Below, in pieces: positions 18,534 to 28,911 of a stretch of DNA of 32,387 nucleotides. The notes beneath the pieces are model-generated. The model was not told the origin of the DNA. It did not search any database and saw nothing but the letters and a program-made list of their open reading frames with translations. Source of the stretch: a virus. The stretch spans positions 1 to 32,387 of IMG/VR virus record IMGVR_UViG_3300004782_000003; one strand, 5' to 3'. Within the stretch, counting starts at the first letter, position 1, and each line of letters starts with the position of its first letter. The position numbers and the translations under genes were made by a program.

Positions 18534-18710
18534 TTAATCTTTAAATGTTGATAAGATTTCAAGCGCCAGTTCTTCATCAGTTCCTAAATATTCCTCGGCG
18601 ATGTGTTTGATTTCTTCCAGTTGCTTACTCTCTTTTCGCACGATATAAATTATTGCTGTGATTAAAACTAGTAGCCCAATGGCGATTATATCAAATACCG
18701 ATATCATCAT
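18534..18710 (-). CDS. Small single-pass membrane protein
   Basis: 58 aa. The start ATG 18710 overlaps the stop of the HNH gene (ATGA), with AGAAGAAG upstream. Residues 4-24 (SVFDIIAIGLLVLITAIIYIV) form one transmembrane helix, followed by a charged cytoplasmic-type tail (RKESKQLEEIKHIAEEYLGTDEELALEI). It is the last gene of the second early operon, ending 31 bases before the RNA promoter. Function is unknown. Confidence 0.65.
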   Translation of the reverse strand: MMISVFDIIAIGLLVLITAIIYIVRKESKQLEEIKHIAEEYLGTDEELALEILSTFKD

Positions 18711-19096
18711 TTTCTTCTTCTCCCTTTTTTATCTTCTCTGTGGTAGGTTAGTAAATGGTCGCGTGTGTAGGTCGGTTGATATTCCATTTCAGTTAAACAT
18801 CTCTCTAACCACTTATAAAACTCGTATCTCATCTTGTCATCACAAGTTGCTTTGTACTCATAAAGAAATTGCTTGATTAGTTTCAGTTTCTTTATGTCAT
18901 CATCAATTAGTATATGAAGCCCGCTATGTTCGAGGTGTGCGACGAGTGATCCATTTTCGGTACTCGTTGCGCCACCTTTACTTCTCGGCTCTATATGGTG
19001 CATTGTAATAGGGTTGCTAGTGCGGATTATTCCACCGCACATACAAATTGTCCCGTAGTCGTAAACAAGTAAATCCCTAACTTTCTTGTTGTCCAC
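18707..19096 (-). CDS. HNH endonuclease
   Basis: 129 aa from GTG 19096. The core is CMCGGIIRTSNPITMHHIEPRSKGGATSTENGSLVAHLEHSGLHIL: a CxC zinc knuckle, the HH pair, the central Asn and the final His. HNH proteins near terminase genes often take part in packaging with the terminase, and others are homing enzymes. Here it is separated from TerS by the RNA, metallophosphoesterase and sigma genes, so either role is possible. It overlaps the upstream diphosphohydrolase gene by 20 bases. Confidence 0.85.
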   Translation of the reverse strand: MDNKKVRDLLVYDYGTICMCGGIIRTSNPITMHHIEPRSKGGATSTENGSLVAHLEHSGLHILIDDDIKKLKLIKQFLYEYKATCDDKMRYEFYKWLERCLTEMEYQPTYTRDHLLTYHREDKKGRRRK

Positions 19097-20490: not shown

Positions 20491-20691
20491 TCACTCCTTT
20501 GATTTCTTTATCGTATCTATAAACTCATTGATACTCGCATATAATTCGCGCTTGCCTTTGTTTCGTTTTGCCTTGTTAATATCAATATTCATATCTCGGT
20601 AGAATTGCGCAACATCTTGCTTATCTAATTCGACTACTACTGAATTGAAGTAAGGATCGATTATGATTAAACTTAATTTTGGTGTGTTCAT
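20491..20691 (-). CDS. Hypothetical protein, 66 aa
   Basis: It begins with a beta strand pair (PKLSLIIIDPYFNSVVVELD), followed by a basic helix (INKAKRNKGKRELYASINEFIDTIKK). The ATG at 20691 overlaps the stop of the DnaB-N-like gene. The basic patch could bind nucleic acid, but no family is recognised. Confidence 0.6.
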   Translation of the reverse strand: MNTPKLSLIIIDPYFNSVVVELDKQDVAQFYRDMNIDINKAKRNKGKRELYASINEFIDTIKKSKE

Positions 20692-21101
20692 ATCTTCTCC
20701 ACCTCATTTCTAAACTCCTCAACACTAATCTCGCGACTTTTTAATTTCGTTGCCAAATTAAGTATTGCTTGAATATTCTTCTTTTCTTCAATCTCCCCAT
20801 TATACAACTTAATCAACTGCTCTTGGTATTGGTTAAAATGCGCCGTTGTAGGCTCGATTTGTACCAACTCACATATATCGCCAACTATGTTGTATTTATC
20901 CACACACACGACCGCCATTAGGTTGAAATCGTAGTTTTTAAAGTTTTTGTAGAATTGTTTCATAAATAATAATAAACTGCGGTATTGTTTGAAGTGTTTT
21001 GGCTCGACAATCAGTTGGTCTGTCAATTCAGGTTTAATAAGTAGGCAGGATATAATTGCTCTTTCAAGCGTTGTGAAGTCGTTGTATAAAAGTTCGTTCA
21101 A
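20688..21101 (-). CDS. Stand-alone DnaB N-terminal-like protein
   Basis: 137 aa. LYNDFTTLERAIISCLLIKPELTDQLIVEPKHFKQYRSLLLFMKQFYKNFKNYDFNLM closely follows the start of DnaB-family helicases (LEAEQAVLGSLL...FY...H..IF.AI), and the helical remainder fits the N-terminal dimerisation domain. There is no RecA-type ATPase part: the frame stops at 137 residues and the next gene is unrelated. It could act as a loader or decoy that contacts host DnaB or DnaG. Identification is by pattern; confidence is moderate. Confidence 0.55.
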   Translation of the reverse strand: MNELLYNDFTTLERAIISCLLIKPELTDQLIVEPKHFKQYRSLLLFMKQFYKNFKNYDFNLMAVVCVDKYNIVGDICELVQIEPTTAHFNQYQEQLIKLYNGEIEEKKNIQAILNLATKLKSREISVEEFRNEVEKI

Positions 21102-22217
21102 CTAAATCCACTCCTTATCCCACAAACTTACATCTTGTGGTAAATGATCCGTTCCATAAATTGCATTGTATGAAGCTACTAGGAATTTATCATATTCAAC
21201 ATAATCAAATATGTTATGTGATTTTCCAATATTTATAAGTGCTTTTCTTGGTGCGCCAATTCCTCCAAATAGTTCGATCATTTCAATGTGTTCTTCGTTT
21301 TTAAATAGTTCGGTAAATATTGCCTCTAATAAATTTACAACAATACTATTTCCTGCTTGTTTATAAAGTTGTCTATTGCTGTTTACTTTAGCCGCTTTTT
21401 CAAAATCGGCATCATCAAATCCCATTAGTCGCCAACATTCTTTTGGTGTTAGTTTTCTTATCTTATAATTTGTAAATACAGCTTGATTGCATGATGTTGT
21501 CAATGTTTGTGCTACTTGATGATCTACACGACCTCTTCTTGTTTTTGAGTTAGGATGTTCTAGGTTAATACTGTCTCCATCCTTTGCCTCGGCATATCCT
21601 TTTTTTGTAGCTTCTTTCACAATCATAATTTGAAGATTTGTTGTTTCCTCTAACTGTTCGCAATAAGTAATCATTCCACTATGTTCTTCTCCAGCACCCC
21701 TTGCAGTAAGTGTTGGACAAATACTATTATTACCTTGTACTTTTTCAAAAGGTTTTTGATATGCTTTCCAATTTGCAATCTTACCGATTTTTTTTTCACT
21801 TAAATAATACTTCTCATCAACTTTATCTTCTAATAAGTCTTTTAATTTAAGTTGTAGTTCTTGTTTTGGTGGAAATACAAAATTATTAACATCACTTAAA
21901 ATTGATATACAAAAAACTCTTTCTCTATTTTGAGGTATTCCATAATCTTTTGCATTAAGCACCTGATAATAATTTTTATAACCTAGTTGTTCCATTTTTG
22001 TTAAATAATCATCAAACACTTGTCTATGTTTCTTACTTATAACATTTTTAACATTTTCCCAAATAACATAATCTGGTCTAGTCTTTTCCACTATTCTAAT
22101 TGTTTCATAAAGTAGCGAACTTCTTGTTCCACTCCCTTGTTCTCCACCTGCTTGTTTTCCTGCAAGACTGAAATCTTGACAAGGACTTCCGTGAAATATT
22201 ACTTTTGCTTTATTCAT
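21102..22217 (-). CDS. Circularly permuted DNA (cytosine-5) methyltransferase
   Basis: 371 aa, normal total length for the family. The usual order is I-II-III-IV-VI-VIII-TRD-IX-X. Here the protein begins at motif IV (GSPCQ, catalytic Cys13), then motif VI ENV (54-56), motif VIII QNRERVF (96-102), a variable target-recognition region (about 165-260), motif IX (about 262-282) and motif X GNSIVVN (289-295). Only then do motif I IELFGGIGAP (314-323) and the II/III segment follow, ending KEWI. The SAM-binding part is therefore at the C-terminus, an order like beta-class amino-methyltransferases. The start has GAGGAAG before ATG 22217, overlapping the upstream stop. It probably modifies phage DNA against host restriction. 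The target is unknown. Confidence 0.9.
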   Translation of the reverse strand: MNKAKVIFHGSPCQDFSLAGKQAGGEQGSGTRSSLLYETIRIVEKTRPDYVIWENVKNVISKKHRQVFDDYLTKMEQLGYKNYYQVLNAKDYGIPQNRERVFCISILSDVNNFVFPPKQELQLKLKDLLEDKVDEKYYLSEKKIGKIANWKAYQKPFEKVQGNNSICPTLTARGAGEEHSGMITYCEQLEETTNLQIMIVKEATKKGYAEAKDGDSINLEHPNSKTRRGRVDHQVAQTLTTSCNQAVFTNYKIRKLTPKECWRLMGFDDADFEKAAKVNSNRQLYKQAGNSIVVNLLEAIFTELFKNEEHIEMIELFGGIGAPRKALINIGKSHNIFDYVEYDKFLVASYNAIYGTDHLPQDVSLWDKEWI

Positions 22218-22488
22218 TTTCTTCCTCCTCTATTTTAATAACTATAATTCTTTGGCTGTACTCATCTTTAACTCGGCGGGCATATGCTGGCATTGTATAA
22301 AAATAAAATGTATTAGGACTAACTCCTAAAAAAGTCGCACACTGCCATTTATTGCCGATAAATAAAAATTGATCGCCCTTGTAAATTGCATAATCTTGTG
22401 AAGTTACGATAATAATCCCCTCTTTTTCTTTATAATATATAATCAAACTAACAATATAATAGCACCTATTATAAGTACAGTCTAACAT
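22210..22488 (-). CDS. Small DNA-binding-like phage protein; start uncertain
   Basis: The frame is open from ATG 22488, but residues up to about 25 lie over the promoter (22456-22484) and look non-coding. The recognisable part is VTSQDYAIYKGDQFLFIGNKWQCATFLGVSPNTFYFYTMPAYARRVKD...IIVIKIEEE, a common short phage protein with a helix-turn-helix-like segment (QCATFLGVSPNTFYFY). A ribosome site AGAGGGG (about 22417-22423) sits just before in-frame ATT, ATT and ATC codons, so translation may start at a rare codon near 22411-22417. It is the first gene of the operon and may regulate it. Confidence 0.6.
   Translation of the reverse strand: MLDCTYNRCYYIVSLIIYYKEKEGIIIVTSQDYAIYKGDQFLFIGNKWQCATFLGVSPNTFYFYTMPAYARRVKDEYSQRIIVIKIEEEENE
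22456..22484 (-). promoter_or_regulatory. Promoter of the second early operon, with -10 palindrome
   Basis: -35 TAGACT (22484-22479), 17-bp spacer, -10 TATTAT (22461-22456). The palindrome ATAATAG-cac-CTATTAT (22456-22472) covers the -10 box, matching in core (TAGgtgCTA) and placement the one at the early promoter 114-142. The -35 overlaps the first copy of the TCTAACAT repeat (22481), so the origin-like repeat cluster and this promoter are linked. Confidence 0.65.
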
Positions 22489-22741
22489 TTTGTATTTTTT
22501 AGTCTAACATTTATCTAACATTTATCTAACATTTTTATTGGCACTTTGCCCTTATTTTTCAACAAAGTCTAACATTCTAACATAAAAGTCCGGCATCGAG
22601 CCTTACGCGAGAAAAATATTTATAAATTATTTCTATTATAGGGTGTGTAGTTGGAAAAAAATGTTAGAATGTTAGACACCTATATGAAATAAGGTCAAAC
22701 TAGGCGTTTTTCTTGTAGAATTACGTTAGAATAATGTTAGA
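22481..22741. repeat. TCTAACAT iteron cluster, probable replication origin
   Basis: Nine exact copies of the 8-mer TCTAACAT lie in 260 bp: forward at 22481, 22503, 22514, 22525, 22568 and 22576, and inverted at 22661, 22669 and 22734, plus a near copy at 22723. Spacings of 22, 11 and 11 bases put the first four on one face of the helix. The pairs at 22567-22583 and 22661-22677 form a perfect 17-bp inverted repeat flanking an AT-rich segment (about 22611-22640) that could melt. It sits directly downstream of the DUF927 ATPase gene and holds no gene. Iterons next to a replication gene are the usual design of phage origins; an operator array is the alternative. Confidence 0.65.
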
Positions 22742-25343: not shown

Positions 25344-26006
25344 TTATTTTTCCTCTTCTTTCTTTTCTTCTTCTATTTTATCTAAATCATAATATTCTCT
25401 AATAACTTTGTCAATTTCATTTAAGTCATTTTCAACTTCTTCGTTTTCAAACATTCCAATTGGTGTTTTAACAACGTCATTTCCATTTGTTTTTGTTCTC
25501 ATAATATATTTACCGTCTTTATATTCAGTTCTTAAAACAACTGTAAACATACCCTCAATACAAACTTTTTCATCAAGCATTTTTCCTATTGATTTTGGTT
25601 TTATTTTACCAAATTCATTGACATCTTCGTGCATAAAGAAATAAACTATTTTTCCACCGTCAACGTTTTTTATTTGACTGATTAAATTCCAATAGTTATC
25701 TCCAAGTTCGTTATAAAGTCCAAAGATAGCATTTCCTCCACCACCTTTTGAATGGTTTTTCATAAATTGATTTGTAATTAAATAACCTGCGTCATCTAAA
25801 ACGATCAATTTTCTTTTTGTTCCTGCTATTGTTTTTAAAACATCTGCATATTCATCAGTTATTTTAATATTTTTAAATGTGTTTTTAAAAGGTAATTGTT
25901 TACCTAAAACATTTATCAATGTTAGTTTACTATCATCAACATTTCTCAATGAAGCTGACTTTCCTGAACCTGATGGACCAATAACTAATACTGCCATACT
26001 TTTCAT
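25344..26006 (-). CDS. Internal in-frame start giving the ATPase alone
   Basis: AGGAGG at 26021-26016 is followed after nine bases by ATG 26006, in frame with the fusion protein. The product (MKSMAVLVIGPSGSGKS...) would be a 220-residue ATPase, the normal size and N-terminus of Sak4-like proteins. Among in-frame internal Met codons here, this one has a full ribosome site in the ordinary sense of the host. It reads as a former gene start kept after the nuclease gene lost its stop codon. Use of the site is inferred. Confidence 0.65.
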   Translation of the reverse strand: MKSMAVLVIGPSGSGKSASLRNVDDSKLTLINVLGKQLPFKNTFKNIKITDEYADVLKTIAGTKRKLIVLDDAGYLITNQFMKNHSKGGGGNAIFGLYNELGDNYWNLISQIKNVDGGKIVYFFMHEDVNEFGKIKPKSIGKMLDEKVCIEGMFTVVLRTEYKDGKYIMRTKTNGNDVVKTPIGMFENEEVENDLNEIDKVIREYYDLDKIEEEKKEEEK

Positions 26007-26792
26007 ATTTCTAATCCTCCTATTTTCTAATATTTGCCTTGCTTCTTTCATCAAGTCTTTTGGTTCTATAATTTCGTAGTTATTATTTTGTAGTCCGAAA
26101 TATATAATAATCTTCTCATCAACTTTTAAGCCTGTGTTCTTTTCGATTTTAAAACTGTAATTGCATAACTGTAAAGAATAATGAATAAAATTGACATCAT
26201 CTAAATCTTGTAAAGGGACTTTCATTCGTTGATTATATTTTGTCTTATAAACTATTTCTTTATTTGTTTTAAAATCGGCAACAACAATTCCGCCCGTGTA
26301 GTTGTTTAAAAATACTATATCAGTCGCACCGCACTCGTCAAACTCCTCATCTCCCAAGTATATTTCAATTCCAATAACCGAAAACATATCTTTATAATCA
26401 TTATAGAAATTGTCAGCTTGTGGAATAAGTTGCTCAACATCACTTTTTAATCGTTCAATATCAATTTCGCTTGGCACTTTTGAATAATCAAAGATGTATT
26501 TTTCATTTGCCCATAAACTTTGTGCGTATTCGTGGATCATTGTGCCTTTTATTGTAGAGTGTAAGTTTTCAATTCGCCATTCTTCGAGTAATTCTTGTTG
26601 CGTTATTCCACGCTTTTTAGCCACTCTCTCGCTCATTGTATCACTATCAAACTCATTGCCATACTGATGTATTAAACCTGTTGTTGATATACCTACACGC
26701 TTGCCAGCGATATGATAATAGTGTCCCTCATCTACAAAACTATATTTCCCAAACGCTTGTTGAAATTTGTTTTTAATTTCTTGTAGTTCCAT
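25344..26792 (-). CDS. RecB/Cas4-type nuclease fused to a P-loop recombination ATPase
   Basis: 482 aa. The N-terminal half is a PD-(D/E)XK exonuclease: GTMIHEYAQ (His87), CGATDIVF (Asp158), VVADFKTNK (Asp173, Lys175) and the QLCNYSF motif (about 208-214). The C-terminal half is a P-loop ATPase: Walker A GPSGSGKS (272-279) and Walker B KLIVLDDAG (328-336), like Sak4-type phage recombinases. Normally an exonuclease and an annealing or Sak4 protein are separate genes; here they form one frame. A perfect AGGAGG lies inside the frame nine bases before Met263, so the ATPase is probably also made alone (25344-26006). Confidence 0.85.
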   Translation of the reverse strand: MELQEIKNKFQQAFGKYSFVDEGHYYHIAGKRVGISTTGLIHQYGNEFDSDTMSERVAKKRGITQQELLEEWRIENLHSTIKGTMIHEYAQSLWANEKYIFDYSKVPSEIDIERLKSDVEQLIPQADNFYNDYKDMFSVIGIEIYLGDEEFDECGATDIVFLNNYTGGIVVADFKTNKEIVYKTKYNQRMKVPLQDLDDVNFIHYSLQLCNYSFKIEKNTGLKVDEKIIIYFGLQNNNYEIIEPKDLMKEARQILENRRIRNMKSMAVLVIGPSGSGKSASLRNVDDSKLTLINVLGKQLPFKNTFKNIKITDEYADVLKTIAGTKRKLIVLDDAGYLITNQFMKNHSKGGGGNAIFGLYNELGDNYWNLISQIKNVDGGKIVYFFMHEDVNEFGKIKPKSIGKMLDEKVCIEGMFTVVLRTEYKDGKYIMRTKTNGNDVVKTPIGMFENEEVENDLNEIDKVIREYYDLDKIEEEKKEEEK

Positions 26793-27465: not shown

Positions 27466-28911
27466 TTAAAATAGTGGTAATGCTTTTTCTTGGTTTTCCT
27501 TCATTTCTTTTTCCGATTCATTATTCCAATATTCTATTCTTGCTTTTGCTATTTCAACATATTCGGTATTAAGTTCACACGCTTGCCAATTTGTAAAGCC
27601 TGCTTTTAGTCCGCCGATGACCTCGCTTCCCGAACCTGCGAATGGGTAGCATATTTTTTGGTCGTTTGGTGTTTTGAATAGTGATAGGATTTTATTATTT
27701 AGGGCGATTGGTTTTAGTGTTGGGTGGTTGTTGATCGCCACGCTATTATTTCGTTGGTAAGGGTTTTCAATGTCTTTTTCCCTGCCATCGTGCGAATATT
27801 GTTTTTCATCGCCTTGACACCCCGCATTCCTTTCACTCTTGCTAACCTTTGGATTATAAAAGTATAAGTCGTGGTCTTCTTGTTCGTAGTTGCATTTGTG
27901 TAGGATTTTAGAACAACCAGCAATATTGCCATAACCTCGGCTAACTTGTTGTGAATTGCCTGTTGTCCATATTCCGCCATTTCCACCACCAACTGAATTA
28001 TTACCCTTACTAATCCCGCTCTGTCTATCTAACACTTCTGCCGTTAAGTCGTTGCAGAATGTTTGGGCTGGGTATCTGCCATCTGGTTGTATAAACTTGT
28101 CTTTAATATACCTTTGACCGCCACCGTAAAACTCTGCTAATTTACTTTTACCTTCTTTGTTTTGATAAGTTCCACCGTTAAGATTATCACTCGTTTCCAC
28201 TCTATTCCCATCTATATCAAACGCTCCACAACAACAAGTATCATCTCCGTTTTCATAAGCTAGTGTATCGTGTAAACAACTACCCGTCTTATAAGGCTTC
28301 TGAAATACCATTATTGTTTCGTTAGTTTGTTTTAGTGGAGATATAGAGTATTTATAACCTTCATATTTTTTAGCAAGGTCGGTTGAGGGTGCTGTTAATA
28401 ATCCTTGTGTATTTTCTTTTTTTTCTTTATTACCTGCATAACCAGTAATGTCGCCATTTGGTCTTCTTTCACTCCATTTTTTTCCATCAGGAGTTTTCTT
28501 TTCGCCCGTAACTTCTCTTTCAGCACCCGCATTTTTATCTATCTGTTTACTTAAATCAGTTGCCTTTGGAAAGTTACTTATAAAATACCAATACAAACTT
28601 TGTTGTTCAGTAAACCCTGCTAAATTAGCATAATACTTAAACAATAGTAATTGTCTGTCCATACCATACATCACGCAGTAGCCACCGTGTTTAAGTGTTC
28701 TAAACGCCTCTTTGAACCATTGTTCCCAGTACTCGCCCGTTGGCATTTCCCACTTATTCATAAAGTCGTTTGCTTTCTTATAATCTACTTTGCCATCAGG
28801 TCTTATAATAACCTCACTGCCCAAGGCATATGGCGGGTCAGAAAAGTTTATATCAAACTCAAAGTCCGCCTTGCTTCTTAAATATTCTAAACTATCTTTT
28901 GTTTCTATCAT
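27466..28911 (-). CDS. Amino-group DNA methyltransferase (beta class, DPPY)
   Basis: 481 aa. Motif IV DPPYALG (about 25-31) comes first, a long specificity region follows (about 130-390), and motif I CYPFAGSGSEVIGGL with the SAM-binding ELNTEYVEIAKARIEYW ends it. This is the normal order for beta-class N6-adenine or N4-cytosine enzymes. The target region is large and Gly/Asn/Cys-rich (GDDTCCCGAFDIDGNR), perhaps metal-binding. It probably protects phage DNA or modifies host DNA. ATG 28911 overlaps the upstream gene by 20 bases; a leader nearly identical to that at 19467 precedes it. Confidence 0.85.
   Translation of the reverse strand: MIETKDSLEYLRSKADFEFDINFSDPPYALGSEVIIRPDGKVDYKKANDFMNKWEMPTGEYWEQWFKEAFRTLKHGGYCVMYGMDRQLLLFKYYANLAGFTEQQSLYWYFISNFPKATDLSKQIDKNAGAEREVTGEKKTPDGKKWSERRPNGDITGYAGNKEKKENTQGLLTAPSTDLAKKYEGYKYSISPLKQTNETIMVFQKPYKTGSCLHDTLAYENGDDTCCCGAFDIDGNRVETSDNLNGGTYQNKEGKSKLAEFYGGGQRYIKDKFIQPDGRYPAQTFCNDLTAEVLDRQSGISKGNNSVGGGNGGIWTTGNSQQVSRGYGNIAGCSKILHKCNYEQEDHDLYFYNPKVSKSERNAGCQGDEKQYSHDGREKDIENPYQRNNSVAINNHPTLKPIALNNKILSLFKTPNDQKICYPFAGSGSEVIGGLKAGFTNWQACELNTEYVEIAKARIEYWNNESEKEMKENQEKALPLF

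Follow-up and report, generated by a model that had tools for sequence, protein, structure and literature searches.

Circularly permuted C5-cytosine methyltransferases (C5-MTases) are known both from nature and from the laboratory. Albert et al. 2018 (PMC5944983) give 27 natural examples, every one cut in the variable region, to which their REBASE search confined natural permutations. The same paper describes ten active engineered layouts, and reads the confinement of natural cuts to the variable region as a preference of nature for keeping both domains intact. For the origin of these enzymes, a model of permutation by duplication has been proposed and has experimental support (PMC5944983). 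Directed evolution of M.HaeIII produced active enzymes cut between motifs III and IV (Type C), and an engineered III/IV permutant of M.MpeI is also active (PMC5944983). Activity of the M.MpeI permutant cp122, which is probably of Type C judging by the position of its cut, is low and undetectable on gels in the same account (PMC5944983). No natural III/IV case was found in the literature searched, which lies outside subscription journals and the current REBASE.

The window, that is, the whole stretch of DNA analysed here, is an entire 32.4-kb virus record with tape measure, portal, terminase and capsid genes of siphovirus type. Sequence comparisons confirm the minus-strand gene at 21102-22217 (ATG start, 371 aa; PF00145, TIGR00675) as one intact m5C methyltransferase gene that is circularly permuted. 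It appears to be a new natural variant, with a III/IV layout previously known only from laboratory-made versions.

Motif order and in silico rotation

The motif order originally predicted for this gene, IV-VI-VIII-TRD-IX-X-I-III, is borne out by alignment to HhaI, which aligns in three permuted pieces (residues 6-143 to HhaI 74-210, 248-300 to 266-314, and 311-355 to 12-54). With motif II included, the order in the 371-aa protein is IV-VI-VIII-TRD-IX-X-I-II-III. Alignments with HhaI and with canonical relatives from phages place motif IV (GSPCQDFS, with catalytic Cys13) at residues 10-17 (22167-22190; this and all following motifs are on the minus strand). Motif VI (ENV, residues 54-56, 22050-22058) and motif VIII (PQNRERV, residues 95-101, 21915-21935) come next. 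The poorly conserved variable region, or TRD, spans residues about 144-250 (21468-21788), and is followed by motif IX (RKLTPKECWRLMGF, residues 254-267, 21417-21458) and motif X (QAGNSIVV, residues 287-294, 21336-21359). Residues 295-312 (21282-21335) form a fused linker, recognised by its length and by a helix in the structure model as the old C-terminal helix plus the old N-terminus. Motif I (IELFGGIG, residues 314-321, 21255-21278), which binds SAM, has moved to the C-terminus, where it is followed by the motif II region (DYVEYDK, with acidic E341, 21186-21206) and by motif III (LPQDVSLW, with D362, 21120-21143). The chain ends five residues later. Motifs I, IV (PCQ), VI (ENV), VIII (QxRxR), IX and X are thus all present, in an order other than the I to X succession that is usual, though not required, for membership of the C5-methyltransferases.

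As encoded, the protein matches PF00145 from residue 4 over profile positions 62-324 of 324, with 224.5 bits (2.9e-66) against a cut-off of 22 bits. TIGR00675 is matched with 214.9 bits (2.2e-63), where the cut-off is 100.65. The first 61 PF00145 positions, absent from this match, are located at the protein's C-terminus. A rotated form built in silico, in which residues 313-371 are followed by residues 2-312, matches PF00145 in a single stretch over positions 3-324 of 324 with 241.5 bits. The comparison proposed with the original prediction, between the circularised sequence and HhaI, gives one continuous alignment over HhaI 15-210 that joins motifs I to VIII. Rejoining the ends therefore restores a standard enzyme, as had been expected.

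By the HhaI alignment, residue 371 corresponds to about HhaI 69 and residue 2 to about HhaI 70, so the cut falls in the loop that connects motif III to the strand carrying motif IV. An N-terminus between III and IV, with the old termini fused, is the Type C topology. The C-terminal 59 aa match canonical enzymes with E-values down to about 1e-18, and the permuted layout is therefore not a product of chance. The claim of a normal total length also stands, the length being close to one unit. The spacing from motif I to motif IV is 66 residues in the circularised gene versus 61-65 (median 63) in 53 canonical relatives, and the 22-aa linker from X to I comes near the sum of a canonical C-terminal tail (median 18) and a canonical N-terminus (about 5).

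Operon context and integrity of the gene

The methylase ATG is placed just ahead of motif IV, and a Shine-Dalgarno sequence (AGGAGG, 22224-22229, minus strand) lies 6 nt 5' of it. A 92-aa gene of the same operon (22210-22488, minus strand) overlaps the methylase start by 8 bp; it weakly matches the PHROG 'host nuclease inhibitor' family phrog_803 (1.1e-9). On the other side, a DnaB-N-like gene of 137 aa (20688-21101, minus strand) begins directly after the methylase stop codon. The 3' codons of the methylase (GAT AAG GAG TGG ATT TAG) include AAGGAG (21111-21116, minus strand), the likely Shine-Dalgarno sequence of this downstream gene, which starts with TTG at 21101. In the relative L062, the orthologue of the downstream gene is likewise preceded by AAGGAG. 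Because this element probably serves the next gene, the terminal E-W-I of the methylase may derive from the recipient site rather than from the enzyme.

These junctions bear on whether the motif order was created by misassembly or by a chimeric contig, which is very improbable. The gene comes from one metagenome-derived contig, and near-identical records may be hidden from searches, so that it stands without an independent copy. However, a collapsed tandem repeat would yield the canonical order, and an artefact needs three separate false joins, all in frame and exactly at gene boundaries with Shine-Dalgarno sites and an 8-bp overlap. In addition, neither half of the methylase has a remnant elsewhere in the window.

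The methylase ORF is free of frameshifts and stops. Of the columns conserved to 95% or more among 53 canonical enzymes, the gene retains 38 of 39 in its N part, the single loss being at the new N-terminus, and seven of eight in its C part. These conserved residues, together with the gene's own Shine-Dalgarno sequence and its overlap or abutment with operon neighbours, make misassembly or a decaying relic unlikely. An inactive or decaying product would account for the faster change of the I-III part, and it recalls the low activity of engineered cp122 M.MpeI. Nevertheless, this explanation is improbable, given the open frame, the signature residues retained in every motif, and an N half whose rate of change is at the median (end branch 0.37, median 0.37).

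An AlphaFold model, for which separate N and C pieces of relatives served as input, has a pTM of 0.73. Its pLDDT exceeds 90 across a large part of the core for catalysis and SAM binding, including the strands and helices of the displaced motifs I-III, while confidence is low in the TRD at residues 154-249, which is unresolved and makes that part of the model unreliable. The top solved matches in a Foldseek search of the PDB are HhaI, with TM-scores of about 0.45-0.5 that are held down because Foldseek aligns in chain order.

In the proposed architecture, the chain would begin with the strand that precedes the PCQ catalytic loop of motif IV and continue through VI, VIII, the TRD, IX and X. A short linker, composed of the old C-terminus and the old N-terminus, would then lead from X into the SAM-binding motifs I-III, leaving the new ends in the III/IV loop. 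The old ends are close together in the C5-methyltransferase fold, so joining them should cost little, and the predicted fold is that of the usual two-domain enzyme. Such an enzyme would place a methyl group on a single cytosine within a short recognition sequence, and would most likely protect phage DNA from host restriction. Among the proteins scanned, no restriction enzyme was recognised beside the methylase (the HNH protein at 18707-19096 lies apart from it), which points to a solitary methylase. Guarding of phage DNA by a solitary methylase is the likeliest role in light of established phage biology, and canonical members of the family are common in Firmicutes phages at similar places, adjoining replication or SSB-type genes.

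Judged by its sequence and its modelled fold, the gene is quite likely a genuine phage C5 methyltransferase that was born by circular permutation and is probably active. Counting against this explanation are the single metagenomic virus contig, for which a second independent copy was not seen, and the long branch of the I-III half, which could mean relaxed constraint. The weak activity of cp122, whose cut is nearly identical, counts against it as well.

The methylase site, between the helicase and DnaB-N-like genes, may be a variable insertion spot. L062 carries a DUF927 helicase 67% identical to that of the window, and its synteny was considered as a trace of an ancestral methylase copy. This candidate was rejected: the methylase is absent there, and a 206-aa HNH-like ORF (L062 3626-4246) occupies its position. 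In the window, the stretch separating the methylase operon from the DUF927 helicase gene carries eight copies of TCTAACATT (five plus, three minus) at 22481-22741, compared to 0.7 expected in the whole window. The same motif recurs at the syntenic place in L062 (3027-3280), and the array is iteron-like and possibly a replication origin. Elsewhere in the window, a single 482-aa ORF (25344-26792) combines an exonuclease-like domain (phrog_298) with a Sak4-like annealing ATPase (phrog_2872). A second DNA methyltransferase, of the N6/N4 amino type (27466-28911, PF01555), has a very long insertion between its catalytic and SAM halves, such that profile positions 2-220 extend over residues 20-456.

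Origin of the two halves

The permuted gene would have arisen through tandem duplication or recombination of methylase genes, after which the first copy would have lost motifs I-III and the second copy motifs IV-X. Phylogenies of the two halves conflict. The IV-X half is sister to the canonical locus L103 (support 95/99), whereas the I-III half, in its own tree, groups with the L125/phiFL3A set (100/97) on a branch of 1.25 versus a median of 0.15. Joining the I-III half to L103 is disfavoured (AU p 0.031). The corresponding value with the wider N-half set is 0.0006, for a group that was picked after the N tree was seen. Identity of the C half to the nearest relatives of the N half is 0.48-0.53, below the 0.62-0.85 (5-95% range) of canonical pairs with similar N identity. 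Either halves of two methylase genes were combined into a hybrid, or the part that moved has evolved rapidly.

A hybrid would combine halves of two distinct m5C genes that were neighbours, or of an enzyme split over two genes, instead of deriving from one duplicated gene. The discordant trees and the low C-half identity favour such an origin, as do the tandem m5C genes of Bacillus phage CM1 and the two-gene enzymes common in related phages, and it is given a little under an even chance. However, with only about 60 columns and a long branch, the C half cannot be placed with confidence, and fast change of the moved half would look identical. A product of hybrid origin would function alike. The fullest reading, that this is the first natural III/IV-cut C5-methyltransferase, produced by recombination of two different phage methylase genes and active, is put forward tentatively, as somewhat less probable than its negation.

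In CM1 (L053 1430-5425), four annotated DNA methyltransferase genes follow one another. The leading pair are m5C genes with only TAA-ATG between them, and a single lost stop codon would fuse them. This pair shows that the precursor arrangement of a permutant exists in phages, and it represents a plausible intermediate that would need only the loss of two flanks. Many related phages carry an m5C gene in two frames, split between VIII and IX with extra sequence (L007, L011, L012, L015, L018, L020, L021, L023, L024, L029, L068 and L069). These are either two-subunit enzymes or interrupted genes.

Rarity of the layout and comparison with known enzymes

All IMG/VR relatives in which both halves are visible have I-III first. 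Within the nearest 80 IMG/VR loci, the canonical order is found in 78 of the 78 that are readable, and the remaining two are truncated at contig ends. A phage-database search for the same order, suggested at the outset, yielded no second III/IV permutant when the X-to-I junction was sought in 50,697 phage records. The same was true of junction searches in 72,556 plasmid records and 84,980 species genomes and of a protein-level search in about 790 genomes, and junction patterns had no match in viral contigs. Both halves of the pattern are found in only 13 of 47 and 55 of 80 canonical relatives (28-69%), and the pattern failed to pick up the Clostridia enzymes described below, so the absence of the junction is only partly informative.

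Several apparent X-to-I fusions have other explanations. The apparent continuation from X into I in the PHROG families phrog_16427 and phrog_17284 is a spurious extension past X: the motif I-III piece alone matches neither of them, and in phrog_16427 the canonical L001 ends at profile position 172. In Listeria phage vB_Lmo_C2, the seeming fusion comes from an amino-methylase gene that overlaps a canonical m5C gene. In CM1, the match spans the stop codon between two tandem canonical genes, and the sole pattern match among species genomes (L061) is a cluster of tandem canonical genes.

A different permutation is present in 4 of 391 Clostridia genomes, whose m5C enzymes start just before motif II and carry motif I at the extreme C-terminus (L077 G267:C5:96617-96889; L079 G385:C21:36461-36721; L081 G364:C56:3824-4066; L088 G134:C180:6501-6743). 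Motif I is preceded by a conserved KAMPYLFEDLKL.SFFSGIGAFEKAL-like linker, and motif IV is followed by a zinc-ribbon insert. In L088, the TIGR00675 match begins at profile position 21, and the phmmer alignment of the N-terminal part to HhaI starts at residue 54. Two of the four genes are near a tyrosine or serine recombinase. These enzymes, with a Type A cut, are not closely related to the window gene, but both are natural prokaryotic permutations in the SAM-binding half with X fused to I. Their I/II layout falls outside the published set of natural permuted C5-MTases, and the window gene is therefore not the sole natural exception.

If the III/IV layout is natural and the enzyme active, C5 enzymes in nature have access to the beta-class layout, and the Clostridia and window enzymes together would overturn the published rule that confines natural prokaryotic permutations to the variable region. 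Such a cut, made in nature inside the catalytic domain, is at odds with the reading that nature prefers cuts sparing both domains. The gene also makes an evolved enzyme available for comparison with the weak engineered one, provides a natural point of departure for split or fused targeting methylases, and bears on the interconversion of amino- and C5-methyltransferase layouts.

The nearest canonical phage m5C relatives (IMG/VR L103, L101 and L151, Enterococcus phage phiFL3A gp26 and Listeria phage HB17054) are 66-67% identical to the window gene in the IV-X half and up to 57% in I-III. Unlike the window gene, they place I-III before IV-X wherever the order is readable. Type H/J enzymes (M.BssHII, M.Alw26I, M2.Eco31I, M.Esp3I and M2.BsaI) are natural and of bacterial type, and resemble the window gene in having X before I. 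They are cut between VIII and IX, so that IX-X precede I-VIII (PMC5944983), whereas the window gene is cut between III and IV, inside the catalytic domain, and its N-terminus lies outside the variable region. The break of M.BssHII had correctly been placed elsewhere, near IX/X; its chain has IX and X first, in keeping with the variable-region cuts of natural permuted C5-MTases.

Engineered Type C enzymes, namely M.MpeI and the group-one directed-evolution permutants of M.HaeIII, share the III/IV cut but are man-made from one gene (PMC5944983). Residue 1 of the window protein aligns at about M.MpeI 122-123 (4dkj; query 7 to 129). Prior artificial construction of this topology, active though weakly in M.MpeI, did not enter the original prediction, nor did the further natural permutations represented by plant DRM and the Clostridia family. 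Plant DRM, like the window gene, is a natural permutation inside the C5-MTase catalytic domain. DRM proteins are eukaryotic, have UBA domains and carry VI-X before I-IV (PMC3934875, PMC5529103), whereas motif IV of the window gene (residues 10-17) precedes VI. Class-beta N6A/N4C amino-methyltransferases follow the same abstract order of catalytic motif, TRD and SAM motifs, and the proposal that a III/IV break copies the beta-class order holds in this formal sense, the window order being IV-TRD-X-I-III. The resemblance goes no further. The class-beta catalytic motif, [DNS]PP[YFW], and any PF01555 match are absent from the window protein, which has PCQD at residues 12-15 and homology to C5 enzymes, and is an m5C enzyme by every motif.
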